From positions 186,001 to 250,000 of the forward strand of contig JAMFSR010000001.1 of the NCBI GenBank assembly GCA_026225395.1: a stretch of 64,000 nucleotides of DNA. The letters are read 5' to 3'. This DNA is from Granulicella sapmiensis (lineage in GTDB: Bacteria > Acidobacteriota > Terriglobia > Terriglobales > Acidobacteriaceae). Below the pieces are notes generated by a model. It made no database searches, had not been told where the DNA came from, and saw nothing but the letters and a program-made list of their open reading frames with translations. Positions 31,995-54,198 of this stretch are shown piece after piece; within the stretch, counting starts at the first letter, position 1, and every line of letters starts with the position of its first letter. Made by a program: the position numbers and the translations under genes.

Positions 31995-32798
31995 CTAAAG
32001 GATCTTCTCCAGCAAATCACCGAGCTCCGAAGACGACTCGTCATCCAAATACACCGTAGCGTCAGGATGAGTCTTCAGCAGCGTAGCCGGGCAGGCATTC
32101 GAAATTTCGTCTTCAATCACTCGTCGAACGATCTTCGCCTTGCGAACTCCCGGCACCGAAACGATCAGCTTCGGCACGCGCACCAGCGCCGGAATCGTCA
32201 ACGTAATCGCCTGCCTGGGCACAGCATCTACAGAAGGAAACCAGCCCTCCGCCACCTGTTGCTCACGGCACTCCGTATCCAGCATCACCAGCCGCACATC
32301 CAGTGGATCGTTGAAGTCGGAAAGAAACGGATCGTTGAACGCCAGGTGGCCGTTCTCTCCAATTCCCAGCAGACAAATCTGCGGATTGCCCGCCTTCAAT
32401 GCAGCGGCATACTGGACACACGCCTGTTCCACATCTGGGTTGCTGCCATCCACCTCATGAAACTCCTTGATCGGCACACGCGACGTCAGCTCCATCCGCA
32501 TGTATCGCCGGAACGACGCAAAGTGGTCCGCCGGAAGCCCCGCATACTCATCCATGTGGAACCCAGTGATCCTCTCCCACGGCACATCTTTCCGCTCAAC
32601 CAGCGAGCGAAGCATGCTCAACTGCGAAGCCCCGGTCGCAAAAATCACACCCAGATCACCCTGCACCGGCAGCGCACGCTGCATCGCCTCCGCCACATCG
32701 CGCGCAGCAGCTTCACCGGCAGCCCGCCGACTCTCGTAAACCTCAAACTTCAGTGTTCCCGCCTTGAATCTCTTCGGCTCTACGCTTGTCGTCTGCAT
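31995..32798 (-). CDS. nagB: Glucosamine-6-phosphate deaminase
   Basis: 267 residues from ATG 32798, chosen for AGGA five bases upstream and because the length then matches the 266-residue E. coli enzyme; another ATG at 32825 is possible. It converts glucosamine-6-phosphate to fructose-6-phosphate and ammonia in the cytoplasm. The active-site segments FHMDEY (general base Asp) and GIGENGHLAFNDP (His and Glu) are intact. No allosteric-site prediction is attempted. It lies among genes for secreted hydrolases and propellers, with NagA 4.5 kb away on the same strand. Confidence 0.85.
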   Translation of the reverse strand: MQTTSVEPKRFKAGTLKFEVYESRRAAGEAAARDVAEAMQRALPVQGDLGVIFATGASQLSMLRSLVERKDVPWERITGFHMDEYAGLPADHFASFRRYMRMELTSRVPIKEFHEVDGSNPDVEQACVQYAAALKAGNPQICLLGIGENGHLAFNDPFLSDFNDPLDVRLVMLDTECREQQVAEGWFPSVDAVPRQAITLTIPALVRVPKLIVSVPGVRKAKIVRRVIEDEISNACPATLLKTHPDATVYLDDESSSELGDLLEKIL

Positions 32799-32858
32799 TG
32801 AATTCCTATCGTTGAGATTGAACATTCATTCTTCATCGCACGAAACACCTGAACATCA

Positions 32859-37324: not shown

Positions 37325-38479
37325 TTACGCACAACGGCTTGCATCATTCCACACTCTGCCACCAACAATCACCGTTTCCACCTTCATAGCCGACGTCTTC
37401 TCATCCACCGTGAACCGGATCAGGTCAGCCCGCGCACCCACTTCCAGCACACCGCGTCCGCCCACAAACCGTCCGGGATTCACCGTCGCCATCGCCAATC
37501 CCTGCGCCAGAGTCACACCCGCCATCGCGCATACGCGCGCCACACCATCCTTGAGCGGCAGCACCGCACCCGCTAAATACTCCGTGCCAGCCAGGCTCAA
37601 CCTTCCACTCTCATGCAGCTCAACACGTCCACCAACAGCCGTCTCATAAATCCCCGGTGGATTCCCCGCAACAGACACCGCATCCGAAACCAGGATCGAC
37701 CGCTCCAATCCCTTCGCCCGCACCATCACCTTCAACGCATCCGCCGGAAGATGCTGTCCATCGGCAATAAACGTCGCCGATAAGCGGTCCTCCGCAAGCT
37801 GTGTCCACACCACATTCGTGTGTCGAGGCAGCATAGCGGTTGTGCCGTTGCCCAGGTGTGTCGAAAGCCTCGCCCCCGCATCCACGGCCCTTCGTATCTC
37901 CTCGCTCGATGCGTTCGTATGCCCCAACGCCACCACGACACCTCGCGCGGTCACCGCCGCAATATACTCCGCAGCCCCCGGAGAATGCGGCGAAAGCGTA
38001 ATCAATCCCACCAACCCACAGGAAATCTCCTGCCACCGCGCGAACTCCGCGAGATTCGGTTCCCTCACATGCTCCACCGGGTGCGCTCCACGATACCCTT
38101 CCGTGGCACTGATGTACGGCCCTTCCACATGCACACACGGAATCGCAGCCGCTGCCACACTGCTCTGCCGCCTCGCTTCAGCAATCGCTCTCAAAGCCTT
38201 CGCGATCTTAACCTCGGACGACGTGATCACGGTCGGGAGAAACGTCGTCGTTCCCGTAGCCAGCATCTTCTCCGTAAACCGCAGCACAGTCTCCGCGCTC
38301 ACATCGTCCGCATTAACATCTTCCCCGCCATACCCGTTCACCTGCAGGTCAATCAGACCGGTCGAGATCCACCCCTGCTCGTCATGCTCCACCTTCCTCA
38401 CACCCGCAATCGCGCCATCTTCAAAGCTCACCTCGATCCCCGCCCCATCGACAGGATTTCTTCCCCGTAAAACTTGCAC
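37325..38479 (-). CDS. nagA: N-acetylglucosamine-6-phosphate deacetylase
   Basis: 384 residues from GTG 38479, preferred to ATG 38500 because GAGGAG lies five bases before the GTG and the length fits the 382-residue E. coli enzyme. The barrel carries HVEGPYI (metal Glu), ALGHTNAS and STHLGNG (metal His residues) and ILVSDAVS (catalytic Asp). The STHLGNG segment differs from the more common THLFNAM of enterobacterial NagA. It removes acetate from GlcNAc-6-phosphate in the cytoplasm, feeding NagB. Divergent from the GH36-like gene with a shared palindrome between them. Confidence 0.85.
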   Translation of the reverse strand: MQVLRGRNPVDGAGIEVSFEDGAIAGVRKVEHDEQGWISTGLIDLQVNGYGGEDVNADDVSAETVLRFTEKMLATGTTTFLPTVITSSEVKIAKALRAIAEARRQSSVAAAAIPCVHVEGPYISATEGYRGAHPVEHVREPNLAEFARWQEISCGLVGLITLSPHSPGAAEYIAAVTARGVVVALGHTNASSEEIRRAVDAGARLSTHLGNGTTAMLPRHTNVVWTQLAEDRLSATFIADGQHLPADALKVMVRAKGLERSILVSDAVSVAGNPPGIYETAVGGRVELHESGRLSLAGTEYLAGAVLPLKDGVARVCAMAGVTLAQGLAMATVNPGRFVGGRGVLEVGARADLIRFTVDEKTSAMKVETVIVGGRVWNDASRCA

Positions 38480-38546
38480 GTTGGCTCCTCGCTTCTTCAT
38501 CGTTCGCCCATCCGGTCCAATCCCTATCTTAGAGTTGGCATGCTAT

Positions 38547-38610: not shown

Positions 38611-40593
38611 ATGAGACGGTTTCTGACACTCCATCTGGCAGTTTTGGCGACCTCTTTCGCCGCCGTCCACGCCGCTCCGCCATCCCCGCCACGGTCCGCC
38701 AACGTCAAGCTCATCGGAAACCATGGTCTCACCGCCACCGTAAAACTTGATAGCGGCAAACTCTCAATCGATGCCGTCGAAGACACCGCTCTCCACGCTT
38801 CCATCCACCCCACGGAAGCCTTCGTCCTCGTCCTTGAAAACGGCCGCGAACTCCGTTCCTCCACCATGGACGTGCAGGGCGGCCTCGAATCCTCCACCGT
38901 CACCGTAAATCCCTCCGCATCCCGCCAGGCCGAACACGAACCGGGCCACCAACTCTGCGCCATCCTCACCGACAAGGAAACCGCAACCCGCGTCCATTGG
39001 TGCATGGTCTCGCGCGGCCAACAACCTTATCTCCGCCAGGAAATCACCATCCAGGCTCCAGCTCTTCCGCTCGCACTCACCGACGTCCAGCTCTTCCACT
39101 TCCACGACCCCTCCGCGCATGTCGTCGGCTCCGTAGCCGGCTCACCCATCGTCACCGGCAACTTTTACCTCGGCTTCGAGCACCCGCTCTCCTACACCAC
39201 CACCGTCAACGGCGAAGTCATCGCCGGTCTCAAACGCACCTTACCGCTCGCCGCCGGCCAATCCATCACCTACACCTCCGTCATCGGTGCCGCACGTCCC
39301 GGCCAGCTACGGCGCGACTTCCTCGCCTACCTCGAGCAGGAGCGCGCCCACCCCTACCGCACCTTCCTCCACTACAACACCTGGTACGACATCGGCTACG
39401 GCGAACGCTTCGACCAGGCCGCCGTCCTCAATCGCATCCACGCCTTCGGCGAAGAGCTCGTCCGCAAGCGCAACGTCCACATGGACTCCTTCCTCATGGA
39501 CGACGGCTGGGACAACACCAGCTCTCTCTGGGATATCAACAGCGGCTTCCCCAACGGCCTCGTCCCCGTCCGCGCCGCCGCCGCAAAGTACGGCTTCGGC
39601 ATCGGCATCTGGATGTCGCCCTGGGGCGGCTATCAAAAAGAAAAGCAGCAACGCATCGCCTTCGGCAAAAGCCAGGGATATGAAATCGTCGATGGCGGCT
39701 ACGCTCTCTCCGGCCCACGCTACTACGCAAAGTTCGAGCAAACCTGCCTCAACTTCGTAAAGCGTGACGGCGTCAACCAGTTCAAATTCGATGGCACCGG
39801 CAACGCCGGCCAGGTCTTCCCCGGAAGCCTCTTCGACAGCGACTTCTCCGCCGCCATTCACCTCGTCGAACGCATCCGCCAAGCAAACAATCAGGTCTTC
39901 ATCAACCTCACCACCGGCACCAAGCCCTCACCCTTCTGGCTCCGCTACGCCGACTCCATCTGGCGATCCGGCGAAGACCACGACTTCACCGGCGAAGGCA
40001 CCTGGCGCCAAAAGTGGATCACCTACCGCGACGCCCAAACCTACCGGAACATCGTGCAGGGCGGCCCACTCTTTCCCCTCAACTCCCTCATGCTCCACGG
40101 CATCCTCTACGCCGCCCAGGCCGAGCATCTATCCGACGACCCCGGCCACGACTTCACCGCCGAAGTTCACTCCTACTTCGGCAGCGGCACCCAACTGCAG
40201 GAGATGTACATCACCCCCTCGCTGCTCACCCCCTCCGACTGGGACACTCTCGCCGAATCCGCAAACTGGTCCCGCCACAACGCCTCCATCCTCCGCGACA
40301 CCCATTGGATCGGCGGCGATCCCGCCAAAGCCGAGCCCTACGGCTGGGCTTCCTGGAACGCCAACGCCGGCATCATCGTCCTCCGCAACCCCTCCTCGCA
40401 CCCACAACACATCTCCATCGATATCCAAACTGCCTTCGAACTTCCGCCCAACGCGAAGCCGCACTACTCCATGCACAGCCCCTGGGCCGCCGACGCCAAC
40501 AACCCCTCCATCGAGCTCAACGCCCATCAACCCCACACCTTCGACCTCCATCCCTTCGAGGTCCTCACCCTCCAAAGCGCACCGAACCCATAG
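38611..40593 (+). CDS. Secreted clan GH-D hydrolase, GH36-like (putative alpha-galactosidase)
   Basis: 660 residues with a Sec signal (LTLHLAVLATSFAAVHAAP). A beta-rich N-terminal domain of about 240 residues precedes the barrel. DSFLMDDGWD near 288-297 matches the DDGW/DDCW element of GH27 and GH36; FKFDGTGN near residue 390 would supply the nucleophile Asp, and SGEDHDF near 450 the acid Asp. A beta domain closes the protein. Probably releases alpha-galactosyl or related residues outside the cytoplasm. First of four tightly packed plus-strand genes (11 bases to the next). The family is assigned by motifs and the sugar specificity is uncertain. Confidence 0.72.
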   Translation: MRRFLTLHLAVLATSFAAVHAAPPSPPRSANVKLIGNHGLTATVKLDSGKLSIDAVEDTALHASIHPTEAFVLVLENGRELRSSTMDVQGGLESSTVTVNPSASRQAEHEPGHQLCAILTDKETATRVHWCMVSRGQQPYLRQEITIQAPALPLALTDVQLFHFHDPSAHVVGSVAGSPIVTGNFYLGFEHPLSYTTTVNGEVIAGLKRTLPLAAGQSITYTSVIGAARPGQLRRDFLAYLEQERAHPYRTFLHYNTWYDIGYGERFDQAAVLNRIHAFGEELVRKRNVHMDSFLMDDGWDNTSSLWDINSGFPNGLVPVRAAAAKYGFGIGIWMSPWGGYQKEKQQRIAFGKSQGYEIVDGGYALSGPRYYAKFEQTCLNFVKRDGVNQFKFDGTGNAGQVFPGSLFDSDFSAAIHLVERIRQANNQVFINLTTGTKPSPFWLRYADSIWRSGEDHDFTGEGTWRQKWITYRDAQTYRNIVQGGPLFPLNSLMLHGILYAAQAEHLSDDPGHDFTAEVHSYFGSGTQLQEMYITPSLLTPSDWDTLAESANWSRHNASILRDTHWIGGDPAKAEPYGWASWNANAGIIVLRNPSSHPQHISIDIQTAFELPPNAKPHYSMHSPWAADANNPSIELNAHQPHTFDLHPFEVLTLQSAPNP

Positions 40594-40603
40594 CCCGGCA
40601 CCC

Positions 40604-41731
40604 ATGCTCACAAGACGCTCCCTCCTCCGCTCGCTCCCCGCCGCCGCCCTCCTTCCGCGCACCCTCTACGCCGCCCCCACAACCCACAAACTCTTCATCG
40701 GCACCGGCAAAACCACCAACAGCAAAGGCATCTACCTCGCCCCCTGGAACCCCGACGGCACCATAGGCCCCATCACCCTGGCCGCCGAAATGCCAAGCCC
40801 CACCTTCCTCGCCCTCGGCAAACACTCTCACCACCTCTACGCCACCAGCGAAGTCGCCGAAGGCCAGGCCGTCGCCTTCACCATCGCGCCCACCACCGGG
40901 CAGCTCACCCGCCTCAACGCGCAAAGCACGCAGGGCAACGGTCCCGCGCACATCGCGGTCAGCCCCAACGGCCGCGCCGCCTTCGCGACCAACTACGGCA
41001 GCGGCAGCCTCACCTCCTACACCATCACCTCCTCGGGCGAGCTCTCCACACCCGTCTCGCACTTCCAGTACACACCCATCGACGCGCAACCCGAACACCA
41101 GCAGCCCCACGCCCACCAGGCCACCTCCTCGCACGACAGCCGCTGGCTCCTCGTCAACGACCTCGGCTCCGACCGCATCAACATCTACCGCTCCGACCCG
41201 CACACCGGCTCGCTCACACCCGGCCCGCAACCCTTCTGGCAGGCCCGCTTCCAATCCGGCCCACGCCATCTCGCCTTCCATCCCAACGGCCGCTGGGTCT
41301 ACAACGCCAACGAGCTCGACTCCACCGTCGACCACCTCCTCTGGAACAACCACCACGGCACCCTCACCACCGCAAGCTCCTTCGTCTCCACACTCCCCGC
41401 CGACTACCCCGCCGGCCACTCCACCGCCTCCGAAATCCTCACCTCACCCGACGGCAACTTCCTCTACGTCGGCAACCGCGGCAACGAATCCATCGCCGTC
41501 TTCAACATCCATCCCCACACCGGCGCCCTCACCCTCGCGCAACTCGCTCCCCACGGCGGCAAAACCGCACGCCACATCGCGCTTTCCCCCACCGCAGCTT
41601 TCCTCCTCATCGCCTGTCAGGACTCCAACAGCATCGTCGTCCTCGCGCGCGATGCTATCACCGGTCGCCTCTCCGCCCCACGCAACACGTACCCTATCGA
41701 CAGCCCACAGTGCCTCGTCTTCACCACATAA
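40604..41731 (+). CDS. Exported lactonase-family propeller (6-phosphogluconolactonase type, YbhE-like)
   Basis: 375 residues from ATG 40604, eleven bases after the preceding stop; the frame runs back to 39764 but only antisense-like sequence inside the hydrolase gene lies there. The N-terminus MLTRRSLLRSLPAAALLP is a Tat-type signal. The rest is the seven-bladed lactonase fold: GPAHIAVSPNGRAAFATNYGSG, QPHAHQATSSHD, GPRHLAFHPNGRWVYNANE and TASEILTSPDGNFLYVGNRG match the family motifs, including the conserved His and Arg. It should hydrolyse a sugar lactone, here probably a non-phosphorylated one in the periplasm, next to a flavin sugar oxidase. Confidence 0.82.
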   Translation: MLTRRSLLRSLPAAALLPRTLYAAPTTHKLFIGTGKTTNSKGIYLAPWNPDGTIGPITLAAEMPSPTFLALGKHSHHLYATSEVAEGQAVAFTIAPTTGQLTRLNAQSTQGNGPAHIAVSPNGRAAFATNYGSGSLTSYTITSSGELSTPVSHFQYTPIDAQPEHQQPHAHQATSSHDSRWLLVNDLGSDRINIYRSDPHTGSLTPGPQPFWQARFQSGPRHLAFHPNGRWVYNANELDSTVDHLLWNNHHGTLTTASSFVSTLPADYPAGHSTASEILTSPDGNFLYVGNRGNESIAVFNIHPHTGALTLAQLAPHGGKTARHIALSPTAAFLLIACQDSNSIVVLARDAITGRLSAPRNTYPIDSPQCLVFTT

Positions 41732-41736
41732 TCTCC

Positions 41737-43248
41737 ATGGAGCCCCCGATGCAGGCCGTCCCCGTCACCGTCGATCGCAAAGACCCCCGCTTCGACACGC
41801 TCAAGCGCGGCAACAACATCCGCTTCCCTGCCACCGACGCCGAAGCCGCCGGTCGCATCGTTCTCTGCAGCGACGAGGCCGAAGTCTCCGCTGCTCTCCA
41901 GCGGATCGTCGCCTCCGGCATCCGCCCCACCATCCGCAGCGGCGGCCACTGCTACGAAGACTTCGTCGCCAACAATCCCAACGGCGCCATCATCGACCTC
42001 TCCCTCCACAACCGCGTCGACGCCCCCGCCACCGGCAAGCCCTTCCGCGTCGCCTCCGGCGCGCGCCTCGGCGAGGTCTACCAAACCCTCTACAAGCGCT
42101 ACGACGTCACACTCCCCGCCGGCACCTGCTACATGGTCGGCGCCGGCGGACACATCTCCGGCGGCGGCTACGGCCTCCTCGCTCGCCAACGCGGCCTCAC
42201 CGTCGACTGGATCACCGCCATCGATATCCTCACCATCGACCCCCACGGCAAAGTCATCGAACGCCATATCGACAAAGCCCACGACCCCGATCTCTTCCGC
42301 GCCTGCCGCGGCGCCGGCGGCGGAAACTTCGGCATCATCACCAACTTCTACTTCGACACGCTGCCCGCCTCGCCCCAGCAGGTCGCCGAAGCCTCTGTCT
42401 CCTTCCCGTGGTCTTCCATGACCGAAGAAAAATTTACCCGCCTCCTCGCCCTCTACGGCGACTACTGGAACGGCCCCGGTCGCACTCCAGAAACCTGGGG
42501 TCTCTCCGTCGTCCTCACCCTCGGCCCCAGCAAGCACGGCGCCGGCAACATCAACATAGCCGCGCAATACTGCGACGCCAACGGCAAAGCCTCCGATCTC
42601 TCCATCCTCTACGACTTCTTTGACCGCTTCGCCGAACTCATACATCCACAACCCGCCGGCAAATCAGACGAATCAAAGGCCGAGCGCTACAGTGTCAAGC
42701 TTCGCCCCTGGCTCGAAGCCACACTCGCTGGCTCGGACTCCGGCGGCACCGTTCGCGCCAAGTACAAGTCCACCTACATGAAGAAGCCCTTCGTCCAGGC
42801 CGAGTGTCACACCCTCTACAAATTCCTCAACTCACCCAACATCGACGCCCACGGCTTCGTCCTCGCCGTCGACGGCTACGGCGGCGCCACCAACAACCCC
42901 GACCGTGTCCACGACACCGCCATCGCCCAGCGCTCCTCCATCATGAAGCTCCAATGGCAGTGCTACTGGGCCGAAGCCTCGGAAGACGCCGCCCGCCTCA
43001 AGTTCATGGACGACTTCTACACCGCCATGTACACCGGCCCACACGTCCCACACGAATATCAAGGCACACCCTTCGGCGAGCACTACGAAGGCTGCTACAT
43101 GAACTACGCCGACGCCGACATGCTCCGCTACACCCACTGGCCGCAGCTCTTCTACGGCGCCGCCGGGCTCTATCCGCAACTCCAGCAGGTAAAGTATCAG
43201 TACGACGCCAACAACATCTTTCACAGCTCGATGAGTGTCCGCGCATGA
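41737..43248 (+). CDS. FAD-linked oxidoreductase, berberine-bridge/glucooligosaccharide-oxidase type
   Basis: 503 residues from ATG 41737, five bases after the lactonase stop. The PCMH FAD domain has SGGHCYED, whose His would bind FAD at the 8-alpha carbon, and AGTCYMVGAGGH, whose Cys matches the second covalent attachment of bicovalent flavoproteins. CRGAGGGNFGI is the family Gly-rich segment. The C-terminal BBE tail ends YDANNIFHSSMSV. Such enzymes oxidise the C1 of sugars or oligosaccharides to lactones with O2 or another acceptor. No signal peptide is visible, which is odd beside two exported propellers. The product would be the natural substrate of the lactonase before it. Confidence 0.85.
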   Translation: MEPPMQAVPVTVDRKDPRFDTLKRGNNIRFPATDAEAAGRIVLCSDEAEVSAALQRIVASGIRPTIRSGGHCYEDFVANNPNGAIIDLSLHNRVDAPATGKPFRVASGARLGEVYQTLYKRYDVTLPAGTCYMVGAGGHISGGGYGLLARQRGLTVDWITAIDILTIDPHGKVIERHIDKAHDPDLFRACRGAGGGNFGIITNFYFDTLPASPQQVAEASVSFPWSSMTEEKFTRLLALYGDYWNGPGRTPETWGLSVVLTLGPSKHGAGNINIAAQYCDANGKASDLSILYDFFDRFAELIHPQPAGKSDESKAERYSVKLRPWLEATLAGSDSGGTVRAKYKSTYMKKPFVQAECHTLYKFLNSPNIDAHGFVLAVDGYGGATNNPDRVHDTAIAQRSSIMKLQWQCYWAEASEDAARLKFMDDFYTAMYTGPHVPHEYQGTPFGEHYEGCYMNYADADMLRYTHWPQLFYGAAGLYPQLQQVKYQYDANNIFHSSMSVRA

Positions 43249-44631: not shown

Positions 44632-46242
44632 CTACCCTCTCACAGCCGTAAACGTCCCATTCCCATACTCTCCCATAGACACATCCCCCGAAAAACGATT
44701 CCCCTCAACAACCCCGGTAAACGTATAAGGCAGGTAATACCCTCCCGGCCGCATCATGCTCTTCAGCGTCACATGGTCCGCCTCCACCTTCCCATGCATC
44801 GGCACACTGAAGATCTCACCCTTCTGCTCGCCGCTAACCGTATCGCCTTCCTGCTGCAACACAAACTGTTGCACCCCCACACCCCGCACATACGCAATCG
44901 ACACATGCCACGTACCCGCCATCTTCGCCGTCTCACCAGCAGGCACCGGCGGATTCTCAAAGTGCCCCGGTCTCCTCAGGTGCTTGCCCAGAACATCCGC
45001 CACCACTTTGTAATCGCCCGGCTGCATCATGTACGGCATTATCTCAATCGATGAACTCATCGCATCCGGCCGATGCCCTTCCCCGCCGCCCACCAGAATC
45101 CGAGGCGTCCCCTTATCCAGCATCTCCACCAGTTCCGTCCCGGTAATGCCAACCGCAGCCGCATCCCATCGAATCGTCATCGTAGGCGCGCGGTTCGAAA
45201 GGTCCTCGGTCGGCGGATGAATCTCCGTCGTCAGCGAAGGAATTCCCTTCAATGCGTCCGCAATAAAGTGATCCCACGCAAGCCACTGCTTCTGTTCCGC
45301 CTCATGGTCGCGCTTGTACCACTGCCGCACCGCGGCAAGCATGCCCATCGCTTCTTCCTTGCCCACCTTCAGCGCCCGCCCCCAGTTATGGTGCGGAGCC
45401 GCATTCCAGAACGCCGCCGCGCATAGGTCCTTCGGCCCCAGCAGCACACCCGCGGCCTGCGGCCCGCGCATGCACTTGCCACCCGAGTACCCCACAAACG
45501 TCGCCCCCGCCGCCAGATGGATGTTCGGCACCACCGGCTCTTCCGCCGCAGCGTCCACAAATACCGGGACGCCTTTCTCCCTGGCAATCGCACAGATCGT
45601 CTTGATCGAAAGCGGCTCCTTGAAAGCCCTCGGTCCGGAGTAGATATAGATCATCGCCGTACGTTCATTGATCTTCGACCGCAACTCCTCGTCGGTCTCC
45701 ACTTCCACAATCTCCGGTCCGCACATCCGCACCCCAAAGTCATACGGATTGCGCGAGTACTTCGGAATGATCACCTGGCTGCGCGTCTTCACATAAGGCA
45801 TCGACTGCGCCAGCTCCGGATCGGTCCCGCAGATGCACGCCACCGTCGCCAAAGCGATGGCCGCCTCGCATCCATTCGTCACAATCGCCATCGGCGCGCC
45901 CATGTGCTGGGCAATCTCCGCTCCCACAGCGAGCATCAGCTCATCCATATTCACGTAGTAGTTCGAAGCCTCAAACATCGCCTGCTTCACTTCCGGCAGC
46001 GACTCCGACCCCGAAATAATCGTGTACGTCCCACGCGCATTCAAAATCGGCCGCACACCAATCCGCGTATACAGGTTGTCCGCAGCCATGCCTGTAGCAA
46101 CCAGCATCCTGCTCGCACTTCCACCCGGCATGACTGAAGCCGCGGAGGCTGCGATCGGGCTCATCGCCGCGGAGGCAGAAAGCAAACCCGTCTGCTTAAG
46201 AACATCACGTCTGGACCAGCGCGCATTGCGAAACAAAGACAT
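44632..46242 (-). CDS. Tat-exported SelA-like PLP enzyme (DgaE-type ammonia-lyase relative) with C-terminal beta domain
   Basis: 536 residues from ATG 46242 (GGAAGG just upstream; ATGs at 46257 and 46260 are alternatives). A twin-arginine signal (WSRRDVLKQTGLLSASAA) opens the protein. The PLP domain is of the SelA/DgaE type: VTNGCEAAIALA, FVDAAAEEP with the PLP-ring Asp, and YSGGKCMRGPQAAG with the Schiff-base Lys near residue 256. DgaE, a family member, deaminates glucosaminate-6-phosphate. About 90 extra C-terminal residues (GTWHVSI to GNGTFTA) resemble a lipocalin-like beta domain of secreted proteins. A true Sec-tRNA synthase role is unlikely given export. It follows exported RidA and RraA genes in one operon. 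Confidence 0.8.
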   Translation of the reverse strand: MSLFRNARWSRRDVLKQTGLLSASAAMSPIAASAASVMPGGSASRMLVATGMAADNLYTRIGVRPILNARGTYTIISGSESLPEVKQAMFEASNYYVNMDELMLAVGAEIAQHMGAPMAIVTNGCEAAIALATVACICGTDPELAQSMPYVKTRSQVIIPKYSRNPYDFGVRMCGPEIVEVETDEELRSKINERTAMIYIYSGPRAFKEPLSIKTICAIAREKGVPVFVDAAAEEPVVPNIHLAAGATFVGYSGGKCMRGPQAAGVLLGPKDLCAAAFWNAAPHHNWGRALKVGKEEAMGMLAAVRQWYKRDHEAEQKQWLAWDHFIADALKGIPSLTTEIHPPTEDLSNRAPTMTIRWDAAAVGITGTELVEMLDKGTPRILVGGGEGHRPDAMSSSIEIMPYMMQPGDYKVVADVLGKHLRRPGHFENPPVPAGETAKMAGTWHVSIAYVRGVGVQQFVLQQEGDTVSGEQKGEIFSVPMHGKVEADHVTLKSMMRPGGYYLPYTFTGVVEGNRFSGDVSMGEYGNGTFTAVRG

Positions 46243-46278
46243 GGAACCTTCCTTCATCATTGAAGTGCTGAATCGGTC

Positions 46279-46330
46279 AAACGAAGTGAAACCCTAGAGC
46301 GTTTTATAAATCTTCGAAACGAAGTGAAAC
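46279..46330. repeat. Direct repeat upstream of the SelA-like gene
   Basis: AAACGAAGTGAAAC occurs exactly at 46279-46292 and again at 46317-46330, 38 bases apart, each followed by a C/T-CTA-G/C-AG segment. It could be a duplicated regulator site or a small dispersed repeat. Confidence 0.5.
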
Positions 46331-46361
46331 TCTACAGCCTGTGTCAAACCACGAACGGTAG

Positions 46362-46415
46362 GGCAGGGCTTCAGCCCTGCCATCAAAAAGCCGAAACGAT
46401 TGGGGCTTTAGCCCC
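46362..46415. repeat. Intergenic palindromic repeat cluster (copy 2)
   Basis: GGCAGGGC-TTCA-GCCCTGCC at 46362-46381 and GGGGCT-TT-AGCCCC at 46402-46415, followed by GGAGG. The layout and loops match the cluster at 44441-44494 while the stem bases differ by compensating changes. The two clusters flank the SelA-like gene. Confidence 0.75.
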
Positions 46416-46444
46416 GGAGGTCAAACTACCCACGGACAGTGCCC

Positions 46445-46963
46445 TCAAACCGAAGCAATGCAGTCAATCTCCACCAGCGAATCCCCCGGAAGCCCCGCCA
46501 CAGCCACCGTCGTTCGCACCGGCGGCACATCGCCCCACCGTCCCGCATACACCGAGTTCATCTTCGTATAGTTCGCCAGGTCGCTCAGGTACACCGTCAC
46601 CTTCAGCACCTTCGCCATCGACGACCCCGCAAGAATCAGGTTCTGCTCCATCTCATCCAGCACATGCTTGGTATGCTCCTCAATCGTCCCCGCAAAGTGA
46701 GCCCCGATGCCCGCAATGAAGATGAGATTGCCGAACGCGACAATGCTGTTGAACAACGGTGGAGCTTTCGGCGCAACCACTGTCGGCGCCACGGCAGGCT
46801 GCCCCGCCGCAGCCGGAGCAGGAGGATGATGAATCGCCTTCTTCTCCCACACGACCCCACCCTGCGCCTTCGCCTCCGGCATCAGCGCAGCACCTCCAGT
46901 CACCGCAACCGCCGCCGTCGCGGCACTCTTCAAAAAACTCCTGCGCGTCTGCTTCTCCATCAT
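46445..46963 (-). CDS. Tat-exported RidA-family protein
   Basis: 172 residues, versus about 130 for cytoplasmic RidA; the extra is a twin-arginine signal (TRRSFLKSAATAAVAVTGGAA) and a Pro/Ala-rich linker to residue 70. GGGAG precedes the ATG. RidA hydrolyses reactive enamines and imines released by PLP enzymes. The catalytic Arg in PPVRTTVAV and the Glu in SLVEIDCIA are kept, as is HTKHVLDEMEQNLILAGSS. It lies between the RraA-like and the SelA-like PLP genes, exactly where an enamine-releasing ammonia-lyase would need it. Export of RidA is unusual. Confidence 0.85.
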   Translation of the reverse strand: MMEKQTRRSFLKSAATAAVAVTGGAALMPEAKAQGGVVWEKKAIHHPPAPAAAGQPAVAPTVVAPKAPPLFNSIVAFGNLIFIAGIGAHFAGTIEEHTKHVLDEMEQNLILAGSSMAKVLKVTVYLSDLANYTKMNSVYAGRWGDVPPVRTTVAVAGLPGDSLVEIDCIASV

Positions 46964-46997
46964 CTCGCTCCCTTTCGCCTAACTCTCGCCGTATCGC

Positions 46998-47876
46998 CTA
47001 AATCCGTCCGAAGTGCTTCACAGCATCGACAATCGAATGAAACTTCTCAATGTACGGATACATACTGTGCTCACTGTTATCCAGGCTCTGCGCCAGAATC
47101 AGCACCGCCGCCGCCCGCGCCCGCGGCACCACCACGACACCATCCTGGTCCGCGACGATAATGTCATTCGCCTCCACATGCGTCCCATCCACATCCAGCG
47201 GTACATTCACGCCACCAAACCGGTAGTGCGAAACCGATGTTGAAGGAACAACGCCCGTCGCATACACCGGAAATCCAATTCGCTTCAACTGCGGCAGGTC
47301 ACGCACGCCCCCGTCGACCACCGCACCCGCAAACCCCCGCGAGAACATCGCCGTCCCCATCAGCCCGCCCATCCCCGCAATGTCCTGCCCATCCTCCACC
47401 TTCATCACATACACCGAACCCGGCCCACCCGCATCAATAGCCGACAACATCCCGGTAAGCGCCGCAGGGTCTTTGTTCTCTTCCTTCTTCAACAACACCG
47501 TAAGCGCCGTACCCGCAAACTTGGTCGCAAAGATCGGCTGCATCCGGTGCGACATGTAGTGCTTCTCATGCAGCAACTGCTCTTCCGCATCCGAAACCGA
47601 AGCCGCCTCCACATGCCGAAACGCCTCAATCATCCGCTCAGGATTTTTCTCATAGTCAGCCTGCGTCATCGGCGCATCCGCATAAACCGCCAACCCCACC
47701 CCACCCAAAACAACAGCTGCGACTCCCAGACAAGCTCCCCGCAACAGACGCTTACGTTTCCCCACTTGCCCCCACAAATTCGTCATCCTGAGCGGAGCGC
47801 AGCGAAGTCGAAGGACCTGCAGCGCAGTACGCTTACTTCCGCCGTTCGAACCTTTCGACCCCAACACATTGTTCAT
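46998..47876 (-). CDS. RraA/HMG-aldolase-like protein with N-terminal membrane or signal segment
   Basis: 292 residues from ATG 47876; an inner ATG at 47786 lacks a ribosome site but would avoid coding through a dispersed repeat. After the repeat-encoded part comes KRKRLLRGACLGVAAVVLGGVGLAVYADA, a signal or anchor. The RraA fold motifs are AGAVVDGGVRD, with Arg and Asp for substrate and metal, and YATGVVPSTS. Relatives cleave 4-hydroxy-4-methyl-2-oxoglutarate or other 2-keto acids by class II aldolase chemistry. Placed outside the cytoplasm it could cleave or decarboxylate a keto-deoxy acid. First enzyme gene after the MFS gene in the operon. Confidence 0.78.
   Translation of the reverse strand: MNNVLGSKGSNGGSKRTALQVLRLRCAPLRMTNLWGQVGKRKRLLRGACLGVAAVVLGGVGLAVYADAPMTQADYEKNPERMIEAFRHVEAASVSDAEEQLLHEKHYMSHRMQPIFATKFAGTALTVLLKKEENKDPAALTGMLSAIDAGGPGSVYVMKVEDGQDIAGMGGLMGTAMFSRGFAGAVVDGGVRDLPQLKRIGFPVYATGVVPSTSVSHYRFGGVNVPLDVDGTHVEANDIIVADQDGVVVVPRARAAAVLILAQSLDNSEHSMYPYIEKFHSIVDAVKHFGRI
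47784..47822. repeat. Dispersed GC-rich repeat (CATCCTGAGCGGAGCG type)
   Basis: The segment beginning CATCCTGAGCGGAGCGCAGC and continuing AAGTCGAAGGACCTGC is a repeat motif I recognise from many acidobacterial and other soil genomes. Here it lies at the 5' end of the RraA-like frame, where it would encode LQVLRLRCAPLRM. The repeat identity is from memory; copies elsewhere cannot be checked here. Confidence 0.55.
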
Positions 47877-47931
47877 AACGGCTACATCCCCGCTTGGCTG
47901 ATGGAATTGATCCTATCCTTTTACCGCCCAT

Positions 47932-47951
47932 AAAAGAAACAAAAAGAAACA
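47932..47951. promoter_or_regulatory. Twin AAAAGAAACA element upstream of the RraA-like gene
   Basis: AAAAGAAACA occurs twice in direct repeat, one helical turn apart, 56-75 bases before the RraA-like ATG. The same ten bases occur at 54572-54581 before the DUF5107 gene. Spaced repeats of this kind are common for DeoR-family operators, and a DeoR regulator gene lies in the same run. The regulator link is inference. Confidence 0.4.
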
Positions 47952-48068
47952 ATCCCCGTTTTAATTCTCCGCCCCTCCACCACGAATCCCACGGTCCATC
48001 CGCCTCCACAAACTCACCGTAAGTCACCACAAACCTCCACAAAAACGCACATAAAATTTGTGGTGTTT

Positions 48069-49355
48069 TCACCTCGAAAGCGCCCGCTCCGGATGCACCA
48101 GCAGCCAGCAACCCGCCCCCATCACCGCCAGCGCCGCCGCCACCCCAAACGATGTCGTCCACCCAAAATGTGCTGCAATAAAAGGAGTTAGCGACGCTGT
48201 CAGAGCCCCACCCACCTGCCCTCCCATATTCACCAGCGAAGAAAACACCCCCGAGTCCTTCCCCGCAATGTCCGCCGAAACCGACCAAAATGAACTCTGC
48301 CCCAAATACAAAGCCCCCGCCCCACCCGCCAAAATCACACCCGCCAATTGCGGGCTATGTACTTGAGAACCAAGGACTAAGAAGCCGGCAGTCAGCAACA
48401 GCGCAACCGCCGCCAGGTAGCACCGCCCCACCCTCAACCCATACAAAACAGTCAACCTATCAGACAGATATCCCCCAACCAGGCAGAAAACGGTCATGCA
48501 CAGGAACGGCAGCATCGCATACCGTGCACTCGACTTCAGATTGAATCCCCTAACTTGTGCCATATAAAGGAAAAACCAGCTGAAAAACACCCACGCCACA
48601 TAGCCAAAACTGAAGTAGCTAGCCATCAAAGCCGCAAGATCTTTGCGCGCAAAAATCGCACGCCAGGAAATGCCCCGGCCAGCGGCCATCCCCTTTATTT
48701 CCAACGTTTGCGGCAACCCCGCACGTATCGTCTCGATCTCTTCTTCCGAGACCCGTGGGTGCTCTTCCGGGGTATCCCGCGCGATCAACCACCACACGCC
48801 ACCCGCCACAAATCCAACCACAGCACTGAACCAGAAAGCCGCCCTCCACCCATGCGCTGTAATGATCCACGAGAGGAGCGGCGGCGTAAGCCCGCTTCCA
48901 GCGCCCACGCCGGCGAAGATGAGACCGTTCACAAACCCGCGTTCCTGCTGCGGAAACCACCGCGCAACGAACTGATTCGCCGCAGGATAGATCACCGCCT
49001 CCCCCGCCCCAAGAGCAAAGCGTATCCCGATGAGAAGGGCCAAAGCATGGGGGATAGATGACGGCAACAACGCGGTGAGAGCCGTAGCGCAACCCCACCA
49101 CAGCACCCCGAACGTCAACACCTTCCTTGGCCCAAATCGTGCCGCCAGAATGCCAGCCGGAACCTGACACCCCGCGTATCCGATCAGGAAAGAAGAGAAA
49201 ATCCACCCAAGTCTCTGATTGCCAAGGCCATATTCCTGACTAATCTGCAGTCCTGCGATCGAAATATTGGTGCGGTCAAGGAACGCAACAGCGCTCAACA
49301 CGAATAGCCAGAACGCCAGCATGAACCTGACCTTCGCCTGCCGCTCCCCAACCAT
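48069..49355 (-). CDS. MFS transporter, anion:cation symporter (hexuronate/galactonate) type
   Basis: 428 residues from ATG 49355, which has AGGAG nine bases upstream; a TTG at 49376 is an alternative. About twelve membrane segments. The ACS-family features are ALFLDRTNISIAG-like sequence in segment 1 (AVAFLDRTNISIAGLQI), GRFGPRK-like loop (AARFGPRKV), GEAVIYPAANQFVARWFPQQERG in segment 4 and the central loop with EEHPRVSEEE. ACS transporters usually import hexuronates, galactonate, glucarate or other organic acids. Located between the DeoR regulator and the exported RraA/RidA/PLP genes, so the likely cargo is the acid they produce. Confidence 0.88.
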   Translation of the reverse strand: MVGERQAKVRFMLAFWLFVLSAVAFLDRTNISIAGLQISQEYGLGNQRLGWIFSSFLIGYAGCQVPAGILAARFGPRKVLTFGVLWWGCATALTALLPSSIPHALALLIGIRFALGAGEAVIYPAANQFVARWFPQQERGFVNGLIFAGVGAGSGLTPPLLSWIITAHGWRAAFWFSAVVGFVAGGVWWLIARDTPEEHPRVSEEEIETIRAGLPQTLEIKGMAAGRGISWRAIFARKDLAALMASYFSFGYVAWVFFSWFFLYMAQVRGFNLKSSARYAMLPFLCMTVFCLVGGYLSDRLTVLYGLRVGRCYLAAVALLLTAGFLVLGSQVHSPQLAGVILAGGAGALYLGQSSFWSVSADIAGKDSGVFSSLVNMGGQVGGALTASLTPFIAAHFGWTTSFGVAAALAVMGAGCWLLVHPERALSR

Positions 49356-49448
49356 CCGCGTCTTCTCCTGCGTCAAATGCGTAATGCATGCACTTTACTT
49401 CAACCAGGAGTGTCTTGTCTTTCGTATTATTACTTTTATGGCTATGGG

Positions 49449-50240
49449 TTAGACGATAGTGAGTTCGATACCTGCTTCACGAATCGCCCTTGCGTCTCTT
49501 TCGGGAAGCTGGCTGTCGGTGACGATGTGATCGATCTCGGACGCTGCGACGATCAGAGAGAGGCTTCTCCGGTTGAACTTGCTGGAATCACATACCACCA
49601 CGACTTTCTCAGCGGCCATCACCATGGCACGATTGACTCGTGCCTCAAGAACGTTCGGGGTTGTGAGACCGATCTTCAGGTCGAAGCCGTCAACACCGAG
49701 AAAGACAATGTCCGCATGCATTTCCCGAAGGACGTCGTCGGCGAGAGGACCAACGACCGACAGGGAGTTCTTGCGCAGTGTGCCACCGATCATGATGATC
49801 TCGAAATCACTCCGGGCCAGGTCCGCGGCGATATTCAACGCGTTGGTAATTACCGTGAGATGGCGCAGAGAAGAGAGGGAACGAGCGATCTCCGTGGTGG
49901 TTGTTCCCGAATCGAGAATGATGCACTGCCCTTCGGAGACCATTGCCGCCGCGGCCTTAGCAATCTTCACCTTCTCGTCGTGATACAGCTCTTCTTTTTC
50001 CTGGATCGTGGGATCGGATAGAGCGCCGGCGTGGGCCGGCAAAGCTCCGCCGTGGGTCCTGATCAACAGTTCCTTCGCTTCGAGATAGTCGAGGTCTTTA
50101 CGAATCGTGATTTTTGAAAGATCGAGGTTGCTCGACAGCTCATCGACAAGCACGCGACCCTGGCTCTGGATCAAGGAAAGGATGTGTTGCCGGCGCTCCT
50201 CGATCAGCATGGGCGCTTTCGCTTTTTTCTTCATCGTCAT
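49449..50240 (-). CDS. DeoR/GlpR-family transcriptional regulator
   Basis: 263 residues. The N-terminal helix-turn-helix (RRQHILSLIQSQGRVLVDELSSNLDLSKITIRKDL) and DYLEAKELLIRTHGGA are the DeoR signature; the effector domain shows IILDSGTTTTEIARSL and the later GGTLRKNSLSVVGP, the sugar-phosphate site. It likely represses genes in the absence of a phosphorylated sugar. It is 93 bases from the MFS start on the same strand and divergent from the GH27 alpha-galactosidase. E. coli AgaR, which controls agaS, is from the same family, and an AgaS homologue lies 3 kb away. Confidence 0.9.
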   Translation of the reverse strand: MTMKKKAKAPMLIEERRQHILSLIQSQGRVLVDELSSNLDLSKITIRKDLDYLEAKELLIRTHGGALPAHAGALSDPTIQEKEELYHDEKVKIAKAAAAMVSEGQCIILDSGTTTTEIARSLSSLRHLTVITNALNIAADLARSDFEIIMIGGTLRKNSLSVVGPLADDVLREMHADIVFLGVDGFDLKIGLTTPNVLEARVNRAMVMAAEKVVVVCDSSKFNRRSLSLIVAASEIDHIVTDSQLPERDARAIREAGIELTIV

Positions 50241-50516: not shown

Positions 50517-51698
50517 ATGCGCAGCCCTCTACATTTACTTCCTGGCAGTTTCTTCCTGGCTTGTTTGTTCCTGGCAGGCACCGGTCATGCACAGACGCCT
50601 TCGCTTGCGATGACGCCGCCCATGGGCTGGAACACATGGACCAAATTTGCATGCCATGTAGATGAAGCGCTCATCCGGTCAGGCGCCGATCAAATGGTAG
50701 CGTCCGGCATGAAGGATGCGGGATATCAGTACATCGTCATCGACGATTGCTGGCATGGACAGCGCGATGCTGCCGGTAACATCCAGCCGGACCCTAAGCT
50801 CTTTCCGGCAGGCATCAAGGCTCTTGCCGATTACGTCCACTCACGCGGACTGAAGTTCGGCATCTACACCGACGCTGGAACCAAAACGTGCGCGGGCAGG
50901 CCGGGCAGTCGTGGCCACGAATTCCAGGACGCGCTGCAGTATGCGGCGTGGGGCGTCGATTATTTGAAAGAGGACTGGTGCTCGACCGGCAAGCAGAATG
51001 CTGAGTCTTCCTACGAAACGATGCACGATGCGCTGGTCGCAGCCGGCCGGCCGATCGTGTTCAGCATCTGCGAATGGGGCACGGCGAATCCCTACCTCTG
51101 GGGCAAGAGCGTCGGCGGCAACTTGTGGCGCACAACCGGCGATATTGCCGATAAGTTTCAGGGCAAGGACGACTACCGCTTCGGCATGATCGATATTGTC
51201 GACATGAACGAGGACCTTTATTCCTTCGCCGGCCCAGGCCATTGGAACGATCCCGACATGCTGCAGGTTGGCAACGGCGGCATGACGCCCACGGAGTATC
51301 GCACGCACTTCAGCATGTGGGCGATGATGGCGTCGCCGCTGATGGCGGGCAACGATCTGGCGCATATGTCGGACGATACAAAGTCGATCCTGATGAACAA
51401 GGAAGTCATCGCCATAGACCAGGATGCTCTTGGCAAGGCCGGGCGCCGCATCCGTAAAGAGGGCGATCTGGAGGTCTGGTCTCGCGAGATCAGTGGTGGA
51501 TATCGCGCTGTAGTGTTGCTGAATCGTGGAACCGCGGCGAAAGATATCACGGTGCATTGGACGGACCTTGGCTATCCGGCCTCGGTGAATGCGGAGGTGC
51601 GCGACCTGTGGCAGGCGAAGAATGTGGAACGCGTCAAGGACTCCTATACGGCCCAGGTTGCTTCTCACGGTGTTGTGATGCTGACCGTGAAGCCCTAA
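50517..51698 (+). CDS. Secreted GH27 alpha-galactosidase
   Basis: 393 residues with a Sec signal ending near GHAQTP. It cleaves terminal alpha-1,6 or similar galactosyl (or N-acetylgalactosaminyl) residues. GH27 hallmarks: MTPPMGWNTW at 32-41, IDDCWH at 75-80, nucleophile Asp153 in DYLKEDWC and acid/base Asp209 in WRTTGDI. The barrel is followed by a short beta domain. Single gene with a strong hairpin after the stop. Divergent from the DeoR regulator and followed by convergent GH172 and AgaS genes. Confidence 0.93.
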   Translation: MRSPLHLLPGSFFLACLFLAGTGHAQTPSLAMTPPMGWNTWTKFACHVDEALIRSGADQMVASGMKDAGYQYIVIDDCWHGQRDAAGNIQPDPKLFPAGIKALADYVHSRGLKFGIYTDAGTKTCAGRPGSRGHEFQDALQYAAWGVDYLKEDWCSTGKQNAESSYETMHDALVAAGRPIVFSICEWGTANPYLWGKSVGGNLWRTTGDIADKFQGKDDYRFGMIDIVDMNEDLYSFAGPGHWNDPDMLQVGNGGMTPTEYRTHFSMWAMMASPLMAGNDLAHMSDDTKSILMNKEVIAIDQDALGKAGRRIRKEGDLEVWSREISGGYRAVVLLNRGTAAKDITVHWTDLGYPASVNAEVRDLWQAKNVERVKDSYTAQVASHGVVMLTVKP

Positions 51699-53028: not shown

Positions 53029-54198
53029 TTATGCGTAGATGGCAAACTTCTCCACGACCCTGCTGATCAAGCCATTCGGACTGGGCGAATCGGGCTTCAT
53101 GCCAATTTCCATGGAGAAGAAAAGCCCCAGAAGTTGACCGAAAATGACATCGACAGGGGGCCGGTACGCATCCGGGATATCCGCAAACGCGGCGCAACTC
53201 AAGCTATAGTCGCAGGCAGCGTCGGTTCCACCGATCGCCACGATTGTGCGGACTACACGCTTGGCACGAACCTCATTCAACAAGTCGACGTCGTAACGGC
53301 GACGGCTCTCACCACTTGAAAGAAACGCCGTGAACAACGTCTCCATATTCAAGGAGGACATGGGACCATGCCGCAGTCCCAGTGTGGTCTCGTACATCGT
53401 CTGGATCTGCCCGCTGGTTAGCTCCAACAGCTTCAAAGCGGACTCACGCGCGGCCGCGCCCAGGCCACCGGCCCCAACAAAGCAGGCTTTCTCAATACCG
53501 CCATGCCGCACCGTCTTCGAGAGAGCGGAGGCAAGCGTTGCGCCCTGGTCCAGCAGAAAATCCGCTGCGCGGGTCATCGCTTCCAACTTCTTTTCGAAGT
53601 CATCCGGGACCCAGAGCGAAGAGAGCGCCTGGCCCAAAATCACCATGTTCGTGAAGGAGCTGGTCATCGCAAGGCCGCGGTCGTTGACCTTATCGTCCAG
53701 CAGCACAGCGAGCGCGTTTTGGCTCTGCTGTGCGAGCTGCACCATACGCCCTTGTTCGTTACAACTCACAACGAGGTGCTTAACCTTTGGGCAGCTTTCG
53801 AGTGCCTGCTCCAGCACCGCGGCGCCTTCGGGGCTGTCACCGGAGCGCGAGAAGTGTATCCAGAGATAGTTGCGATCCGAGAGGATCAAGTCTTCCCGGT
53901 TGGTGAGCATATCCGTGCTGGCAACCACGGAGACTTCGCAGTTCCAACCGCGACGCAGGAGGTTCGCCACCGAATGCCCAATGTAGTCGGACGTACCCGC
54001 CCCGATGAGACAGATGGGCCAGCGTTGGTCATAGGCCTGGCTCAGAAACGATTTCAGCACCGGCTTCAGCGTCTCGAAGAGTTGGTACGTAGCCTGCCAC
54101 GTTACCGGTTGCTGGGCGATCTCGGAGGGGGTATAAAAGAGCCCCGCCTCGCGCTTTTTTGCATCGGAAAGCGTTAACAGCGTCGATAGTGGATTCAT
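53029..54198 (-). CDS. agaS: SIS-domain sugar isomerase/deaminase, AgaS family
   Basis: 389 residues, close to the 384 of E. coli AgaS. Two SIS domains are seen: IGAGTSDYIGHSVANLLRR with the phosphate-binding SRSGDSPE, and the second domain with VGAGGLGAAARESALKLLELTSG and TTLGLRHGPMS. AgaS acts on galactosamine-6-phosphate or related amino-sugar phosphates as deaminase/isomerase in the cytoplasm. The N-terminal TPSEIAQQPVTWQ matches the family opening. It precedes the GH172 gene; a DeoR-type regulator lies 3 kb away. Assignment to galactosamine is by family. Confidence 0.85.
   Translation of the reverse strand: MNPLSTLLTLSDAKKREAGLFYTPSEIAQQPVTWQATYQLFETLKPVLKSFLSQAYDQRWPICLIGAGTSDYIGHSVANLLRRGWNCEVSVVASTDMLTNREDLILSDRNYLWIHFSRSGDSPEGAAVLEQALESCPKVKHLVVSCNEQGRMVQLAQQSQNALAVLLDDKVNDRGLAMTSSFTNMVILGQALSSLWVPDDFEKKLEAMTRAADFLLDQGATLASALSKTVRHGGIEKACFVGAGGLGAAARESALKLLELTSGQIQTMYETTLGLRHGPMSSLNMETLFTAFLSSGESRRRYDVDLLNEVRAKRVVRTIVAIGGTDAACDYSLSCAAFADIPDAYRPPVDVIFGQLLGLFFSMEIGMKPDSPSPNGLISRVVEKFAIYA

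Follow-up and report, generated by a model that had tools for sequence, protein, structure and literature searches.

The window analysed here comprises 64,000 nucleotides of contig JAMFSR010000001.1 of Granulicella sapmiensis, a member of the Acidobacteriaceae. Four genes on its minus strand encode a major facilitator superfamily (MFS) transporter, an RraA-like protein, a RidA-family protein and a pyridoxal 5'-phosphate (PLP) enzyme related to SelA and DgaE, which we call SelA1 (Table 1). A first-pass annotation had proposed that these genes form one operon for the deamination of an amino-sugar acid or hydroxy-amino acid outside the cytoplasm. Open reading frames and family models confirmed the genes, their places and their strand, and the proposed export signals of the PLP enzyme, RidA and RraA were borne out by conserved signals in relatives, for which a prediction of twin-arginine translocation (Tat) signals was run. 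The idea that the four genes are the whole system had to be given up, because relatives show more genes; the four-gene unit is only a part of a fuller cluster, which is reduced in this genome. Several further genes for hexosamine and glycan metabolism are present in the scanned parts of the window.

Table 1. Features of the four-gene unit and of its surroundings (positions are those of the window).
Feature	Coordinates	Strand	Basis and remarks
SelA1, PLP enzyme of fold type I resembling SelA and DgaE, with a Tat signal and an additional all-beta domain at the C-terminus	44632..46260	-	Alignment, models
Repeat-like sequence in the RidA-SelA1 gap	46349..46443		12 genome matches including its own copy
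RidA, enamine/imine deaminase family, Tat signal	46445..46963	-	PF01042, TIGR01409
RraA-like protein, pyruvate-aldolase superfamily, Sec-type signal	46998..47765	-	PF03737
MFS transporter, best subfamily D-galactonate transporter	48069..49376	-	TTG start; alternative ATG at 49355
DeoR-type regulator, upstream of the MFS gene	49449..50240	-	AgaR equivalog model passed, 278.8 vs 260
Lactonase 1, PF10282 beta-propeller	40604..41731	+	N-terminus MLTRRSLLRS, twin arginine
Flavin adenine dinucleotide (FAD) oxidase, BBE family, without signal peptide	41737..43248	+	Closest solved relative 7zzk
Lactonase 2, PF10282	43245..44357	+	N-terminus MKPTHWNRRTFLSAAG, twin arginine; gene overlaps the stop codon of the oxidase gene
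NagA-like amidohydrolase without a visible signal peptide	37325..38500	-	200.8 bits, under the nagA cut-off of 225.65
AgaS-family SIS sugar isomerase/deaminase	53029..54198	-	TIGR02815, 280 bits, under the cut-off of 529
NagB-like sugar-phosphate deaminase	31995..32825	-	Model score under cut-off
GH27 alpha-galactosidase family protein	50517..51698	+	Family match

Both SelA1 and RidA carry a Tat-type motif near their start (RWSRRDVLKQTGLLSA and QTRRSFLKSAATAAVAV, respectively), and RidA additionally passes the Tat model TIGR01409 (21.1 vs 16.7). A twin-arginine rule was run on the distinct homologues from the fetched loci, with internal stretches of the same proteins as controls. Tat-like N-termini were found in 97 of 109 SelA1 proteins, in 33 of 33 copies of SelA2, a second SelA-like enzyme of the relatives, and in 44 of 47 RidA proteins, compared to 1/109, 0/33 and 0/47 of the internal controls. 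The motif is present in all 47 SelA1 proteins with at least 53% identity, and among the 12 SelA1 and 3 RidA proteins that do not pass, RR is still visible by eye in 11 and 3, respectively. The rule allows an acidic residue after RR; a version barring one passed only 27 of the 109 SelA1 proteins, and the rule was changed after that result had been seen. A hydrophobic signal or anchor was found in 30/30 RraA proteins (internal controls 0/30) and in 50/51 deacetylases of the relatives (0/51). For SelA1 and SelA2 the hydrophobic-stretch rule is non-specific (internal controls 47/109 and 29/33), and only the Tat count was used there. Lactonase 1 has a signal of any kind in 6 of 11 cases, a Tat signal in 4 of them, and lactonase 2 has a Tat signal in 11 of 19, while the response regulator has a signal in 0 of 24. 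The twin arginine and the hydrophobic stretch of a Tat substrate are kept in the orthologues, and a TatC gene is present in this genome. Export of SelA1, RidA and RraA is thus supported by conserved signals. PvdN and PtaA, which belong to other PLP subfamilies, are precedents for the proposed Tat export of an enzyme loaded with its cofactor. Both are exported folded and with PLP by the Tat pathway (PMC6206403). They serve siderophore (pyoverdine) tailoring and not catabolism.

SelA and DgaE are PLP enzymes of fold type I. SelA1 is neither of them by membership, which is ruled out by score cut-offs and active-site residues: it reaches 154 bits with the DgaE-family model TIGR01437 (scores of 136.5 and 154.4 bits against a cut-off of 385) and 19.3 bits with the SelA model PF03841 (gathering score 22.8). 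An AlphaFold2 model of SelA1 (mean pLDDT 85.6) was matched by Foldseek to Cap15 (8t7j; TM on target 0.84, 26% identity), then to DgaE (7lc0; TM 0.83, 24% identity) and then to SelA. All of these are of fold type I, and SelA1 is therefore no counterpart of the fold-type-III deaminase OngC. The catalytic lysine of SelA1 was placed at Lys262 by alignment. The equivalents of Lys213 and Asp189 of DgaE are conserved in 123/123 SelA1 and 37/37 SelA2 proteins, in an alignment in which stop signs within tblastn matches were entered as X. The comparison with the DgaE site proposed by the first-pass annotation holds for the fold, the lysine and the aspartate, but not for His-162/163, and a histidine elsewhere in the loop is found in only 2/123 SelA1 proteins. 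In DgaE, His-163 protonates the enamine, and its loss leads to the release of free enamine; the docked phosphate has three arginines close to it (PMC9529869). Because His-163 is not kept, SelA1 may release an enamine, and RidA would therefore be needed. Because the sugar-phosphate arginines are largely not kept either (R346 in 0/123, R301 in 49/123 SelA1 proteins in a MAFFT alignment), its substrate is probably non-phosphorylated. Residues about 445-542 of SelA1 (44632-44930) form an eight-strand all-beta domain in the structure model, which has no Pfam name.

RidA passes PF01042 (74.5 bits) and stays below the cut-off of TIGR00004 (71.6 vs 106). The arginine of the RidA P.R..V motif binds the substrate, and this residue (PPVRTTV) is conserved in 46/46 aligned sequences. 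RraA passes PF03737 (124 bits against 24.5) and stays below the cut-off of the 4-carboxy-4-hydroxy-2-oxoadipate aldolase equivalog (108 vs 179). The G-G-x-R-D motif is functional in RraA-like pyruvate aldolases (HMG/CHA aldolase), and D, G, G, R and D of the motif DGGVRD are conserved in 30/30 aligned sequences. The most likely RraA start is the GTG at 47765, rather than 47876, because relatives align from about 47765 and a start at 47876 reads through repeat-like sequence; from 47765 the protein begins with a plain Sec-type signal ending in ...AVYADA. The sequence at 47781-47813, inside the false 5' extension, occurs once in the window and is presumably repeat-like. The MFS transporter matches MFS_1 with 207 bits, and its best subfamily is TIGR00893, the D-galactonate transporter, also with 207 bits and below the ACS-type cut-off of 395.

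The four genes share one strand, but they are separated by 303 bp (MFS-RraA), 34 bp (RraA-RidA) and 184 bp (RidA-SelA1). Because a repeat with 12 genome matches occupies the last gap, the unit is looser here than the proposed operon would imply. Simple scans for promoters (1 vs a mean of 2.8 in shuffled sequence) and terminators (7 vs 6.6) revealed no excess. A chance origin of the arrangement is excluded because the cluster is conserved in relatives.

Relatives of the PLP enzyme were found in 136 of the 299 genomes of the class at an E value of 1e-30, and 40 regions were read, 20 at the level of the family (L032-L051) and 20 at the level of the class (L052-L071). Thirteen of the 20 family-level regions retain the order RraA-SelA2-RidA-SelA1, mostly with genes for an outer-membrane barrel and a two-component system before it and a deacetylase gene after it. 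The cluster is split or partial in L032, L037 and L042, and L046-L049 hold solitary second copies from genomes with a closer copy. A match to RidA or RraA was found in 0/20 class-level regions. Conservation of the gene order is seen within the family, but not in the class-level regions that were read. The cluster recurs in Edaphobacter, Granulicella, Terriglobus, Bryocella, Acidicapsa and metagenome-assembled genomes of Acidobacteriaceae. Loci were counted when distinct and with enough flank, the window included; 20 short-flank loci were dropped and repeat views were counted once. Of the 32 acidobacterial loci with at least 53% identity, 25 contain RidA, 25 contain RraA, 21 have the deacetylase and 21 have SelA2, while in 13 the oxidase gene lies no further than 12 kb away. 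The relatives add an exported amidohydrolase/deacetylase and SelA2, which has a Tat signal, to the four-gene unit. On plasmid pACIX902 of Granulicella tundricola, genes for the MFS transporter, a kinase, a regulator, the outer-membrane barrel, RraA, SelA2 (ACIX9_RS20525), RidA (RS20520), SelA1 (RS20515), deacetylase (RS20510), lactonase (RS20505) and BBE oxidase (RS20500) follow each other in one direction, flanked by fucosidase, GH125 and GH35 genes.

The cluster is not confined to acidobacteria, and 10 of 80 named loci carry alphaproteobacterial or Rhizobium metagenome-assembled genome labels. RidA and the deacetylase accompany SelA1 in 9/9 alphaproteobacterial loci with enough flank. In the two of these loci that were scanned, L145 and L130, models for galactarate, glucarate, L-rhamnonate or 5-dehydro-4-deoxyglucarate dehydratase were passed, and in L126 a dehydratase match was under the cut-off. 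Genes for an ABC transporter, a deacetylase, RidA and a SelA-like enzyme, all without signals, lie together on three plasmids from Martelella, Aminobacter and Salipiger. Rhizobium plasmid records have a SelA-like match in 137 of the 228 records with a match, with about 38-40% identity to DgaE in most rows shown, and the two records that were read have a SelA-like gene set with RidA and ABC transporters. Relatives on Sinorhizobium plasmids align also over the C-terminal part of SelA1, and they lie in gene sets for phosphonates or methyltransferases. To see how metabolic DgaE genes are usually surrounded, stretches of about 11 kb were read from one Klebsiella pneumoniae and one Clostridioides difficile plasmid record; both contain a signal-less set of deacetylase, DgaE and 2-keto-3-deoxygluconate-6-phosphate (KDGP) aldolase, and the Klebsiella record also a lactonase. 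The plasmid gene tables are incomplete, and an unlisted gene may still exist. The Klebsiella stretch also lists a RelB/RelE-type pair, and the Aminobacter stretch a toxin-antitoxin-like pair. Of three haloarchaeal SelA-like enzymes without the DgaE histidines, one has a Rid gene listed nearby. In L203, a plasmid of Natronococcus sp. CG52, the SelA-like gene without the histidine pair adjoins two heparinase II/III genes, perhaps another amino-sugar or uronate setting in haloarchaea.

A link to amino sugars comes from the oxidase and the two lactonases encoded on the other strand. The closest solved relative of the oxidase is N-acetyl-D-hexosamine oxidase 7zzk (E 4e-164, 550 bits), and the homology covers residues 10-501 of 502, so that the gene product is predicted to be an oxidase of this kind. 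The solved enzyme, from Ralstonia solanacearum (EC 1.1.3.29), has been studied alone. It favours N-acetylglucosamine (GlcNAc) and N-acetylgalactosamine (GalNAc), and its describers call its biological function unclear and place its nearest homologues in Acidobacteriales and Burkholderiales (PMC9299179). At E 1e-60, 28 of the 299 class genomes encode the oxidase. Of the 24 genomes that have a close SelA1 (E below 1e-200), 23 are among them, compared to 5 of the 275 others, and in 14 of the 23 no more than 20 kb separate the oxidase from the best SelA1. A lactonase gene is found on the same strand within 600 bp of the oxidase gene in 31 of 46 places (repeat views of one locus included), and the loci L141 and L144 have oxidase, lactonase and SelA1 as consecutive genes on one strand. 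Among plasmid records at E 1e-90 or better the oxidase was seen in Granulicella only, and no neighbours on non-acidobacterial plasmids were obtained. A lytic polysaccharide monooxygenase (LPMO) of the AA10 type was rejected as the maker of the oxidised sugar here, as the genome is without a PF03067 match.

The surroundings point to hexosamines as well, by the predicted functions of AgaR (over its cut-off), AgaS, NagA-like and NagB-like proteins (below theirs) and the GH27 protein. The amino-sugar-acid link suggested by the first-pass annotation is thereby extended by the oxidase, the lactonases and, in relatives, the deacetylase and sugar-acid dehydratases, whereas glucosaminate or galactosaminate as the substrate is a point that we infer. 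Between the NagA-like gene and lactonase 1, the plus strand (38611-40593) encodes a 660-amino-acid protein with a signal-like N-terminus, for which Pfam, NCBIfam and PDB gave no match within the limits set; its DDGW motif recalls GH27/GH36 glycosidases.

We hold, with a little more than even confidence, that the cluster supplies the deaminating half of a pathway in which exported enzymes break down oxidised amino sugars in the periplasm. The BBE oxidase would oxidise an N-acetylhexosamine (GlcNAc or GalNAc) at C1, and a Tat-exported propeller lactonase would open the lactone to the N-acetylhexosaminate. An exported amidohydrolase/deacetylase, found in relatives and here absent, missed or replaced, would remove the N-acetyl group. 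SelA1, together with SelA2 in the relatives, would then strip water and ammonia from the 2-amino-2-deoxyaldonate, and RidA would hydrolyse the released enamine or imine to a 2-keto-3-deoxy acid. RraA may cleave this acid to pyruvate and an aldehyde, and the MFS transporter would import the product; the single homologue of 2-keto-3-deoxy-6-phosphogluconate (KDPG) aldolase in the genome could act on it after phosphorylation. Substrate, order of steps, direction of transport and a co-export of the signal-less oxidase with a lactonase are predictions from homology and gene context. It is possible, though doubtful, that the whole oxidative pathway is periplasmic, in which case the signal-less oxidase would hitch-hike on the abutting Tat lactonase, and both FAD and PLP enzymes would be exported in folded form.

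Several observations weigh against the deaminating pathway as outlined. In this genome, which is 94.5% complete, the deacetylase family of the relatives (EF_0837/PRK09237, NF006689, cut-off 371) has no match over the cut-off, the best of 9 weak matches reaching 53.6 bits, whereas the relatives L035 (387.6) and L145 (385.5) pass the model. There is also a single SelA-like match in the genome, and no SelA2 was found. The pathway here is thus incomplete, uses other enzymes, or has parts that were missed. The NagA-like protein was rejected as the exported deacetylase because no signal was seen. On another contig, L072:1441-2970 encodes an amidohydrolase with a signal-like start (best model PRK09061, 206.7 vs 340), which resembles D-aminoacylases and which is a candidate, only, for a replacement. 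It could stand in for the deacetylase because the deacetylase of the ong pathway is D-aminoacylase-like (PMC9537276). More distant SelA1-like loci, with less than 53% identity, contain RidA in only 5/47 and the deacetylase in only 3/47. SelA1 shares only about a quarter of its residues with DgaE and is equally near to the oxygenase Cap15, and the columns of His-162/163 contain His in 0/123 SelA1 and 0/37 SelA2 proteins. The loss of R332 depends on the alignment: MAFFT gives Arg in 0/123, while a profile alignment pairs R332 with the Arg within the sequence GKRPD. Both histidines are retained in five enzymes from Rhizobium, Martelella, Aminobacter and Salipiger, which nonetheless have RidA nearby. 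The absence of His-163 was therefore dropped as a predictor of a neighbouring RidA and is retained only as a prediction for SelA1. In the alphaproteobacterial locus L124 a sugar-acid dehydratase was not seen by eye. With regard to the oxidase, a signal was found in 0/36 distinct cases, so that it would have to stay in the cytoplasm if no partner took it along on export; in 9 of the 23 genomes it is separated from SelA1 by over 20 kb or lies on a different contig, and it is present in 0/9 alphaproteobacterial loci. Its co-occurrence with SelA1 is confounded by shared ancestry, and because the association lies largely within one family, the physical linkage weighs more than the co-occurrence p-value.

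The rival that survives best, which we nevertheless regard as unlikely, is that the exported deaminase acts on beta-hydroxy-D-amino acids or on N-acyl amino acids, such as might come from cell-wall or peptide debris, with a deacylase releasing the amino acid for SelA1/SelA2 and RidA clearing the aminoacrylate. The linked oxidase and lactonases, which are sugar-acting by homology, speak against it, as do the two alphaproteobacterial copies among sugar-acid dehydratases and the hexosamine genes of the window. However, the deacetylase models that were passed or matched specify no substrate, and the unrelated lyase OngC accepts D-serine and D-threonine in addition to glucosaminate (PMC9537276), so that such lyases can be broad.

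The behaviour of the oxidase described above would also fit two adjoining systems. In one of them N-acetylhexosamine would be oxidised in the cytoplasm, possibly with production of H2O2, and in the other exported SelA1 and RidA would act on a different substrate. The missing signal, the distance from SelA1 in 9/23 genomes and the absence from alphaproteobacterial loci all agree with such a split, which we nonetheless consider quite unlikely in view of the 14/23 genomes with both genes within 20 kb, the single run in G. tundricola and the consecutive genes in L141 and L144.

The structural match to Cap15, level with that to DgaE, raises the question whether SelA1 is not a lyase but an O2-dependent PLP monooxygenase-decarboxylase that modifies a secreted or imported molecule. 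The phosphonate and methyltransferase contexts of the Sinorhizobium relatives would be in agreement with this, and PvdN is a Tat-exported PLP enzyme that oxygenates. We judge this very unlikely, because RidA and the deacetylase are frequent companions (25 and 21 of 32 acidobacterial loci, 9 and 9 of 9 alphaproteobacterial ones), which fits an enamine-releasing lyase, and the gene context looks catabolic. Finally, that the signals are unused and the proteins form an ordinary cytoplasmic deaminase set is scarcely credible: although rhizobial counterparts have N-termini without a signal, conservation of the Tat motifs extends to loci from two phyla and to three protein families within a single cluster.

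If the cluster is the deaminating half of an exported amino-sugar pathway, its nearest known counterparts are cytoplasmic. The dgaABCDEF genes for D-glucosaminate use in Salmonella and the related sets of deacetylase, DgaE and KDGP aldolase also encode a PLP enzyme with the SelA fold and the same catalytic lysine, for a reaction that is predicted to be the dehydration and deamination of a 2-amino-3-hydroxy acid, and they share the deacetylase neighbour and, in Klebsiella, the lactonase. They differ by having no export signal, a substrate that in Salmonella is phosphorylated by the phosphotransferase system, the His-162/163 pair and the phosphate arginines, and a KDGP aldolase in place of RraA; no RidA is listed in the two plasmid records, the tables of which are incomplete. 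The ong pathway of Pseudoalteromonas prydzensis, which serves the use of oxidised chitin, resembles the proposed steps in that N-acetylglucosaminate is deacetylated, a PLP deaminase yields 2-keto-3-deoxygluconate (KDG), the RidA protein OngD is essential and uptake across the outer membrane is TonB-dependent. In that pathway, however, catabolism is cytoplasmic, the deaminase is of fold type III, the deacetylase is D-aminoacylase-like and oxidation is performed by an LPMO (PMC9537276). We know of no RidA or deacetylase context for Cap15 from capuramycin biosynthesis. It shares its fold with SelA1 as the best Foldseek match, but is an O2-dependent monooxygenase-decarboxylase (PMC7497351). The first-pass annotation knew of no described pathway of this shape. 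An exported pathway of this kind was indeed not found in the open-access literature, most subscription papers lying outside this coverage, but the same chemistry is known in the cytoplasm from dga and ong. The predicted pathway is therefore an exported variant of known amino-sugar-acid chemistry, and not new chemistry.

Inside cells, PLP enzymes are known to carry out catabolic deamination under the protection of RidA. A conserved set that exports the lyase with this guard and a deacetylase would move steps of amino-sugar breakdown to the cell envelope. If the whole oxidative pathway were periplasmic, H2O2, enamine and ammonia would be made outside the cytoplasm, only a nitrogen-free acid would be imported, and the N-acetyl-D-hexosamine oxidase would gain a physiological role. 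The proposed pathway would give a role to EC 1.1.3.29 together with a sequenced test host, Granulicella tundricola, and it bears on the use of amino sugars by soil acidobacteria.

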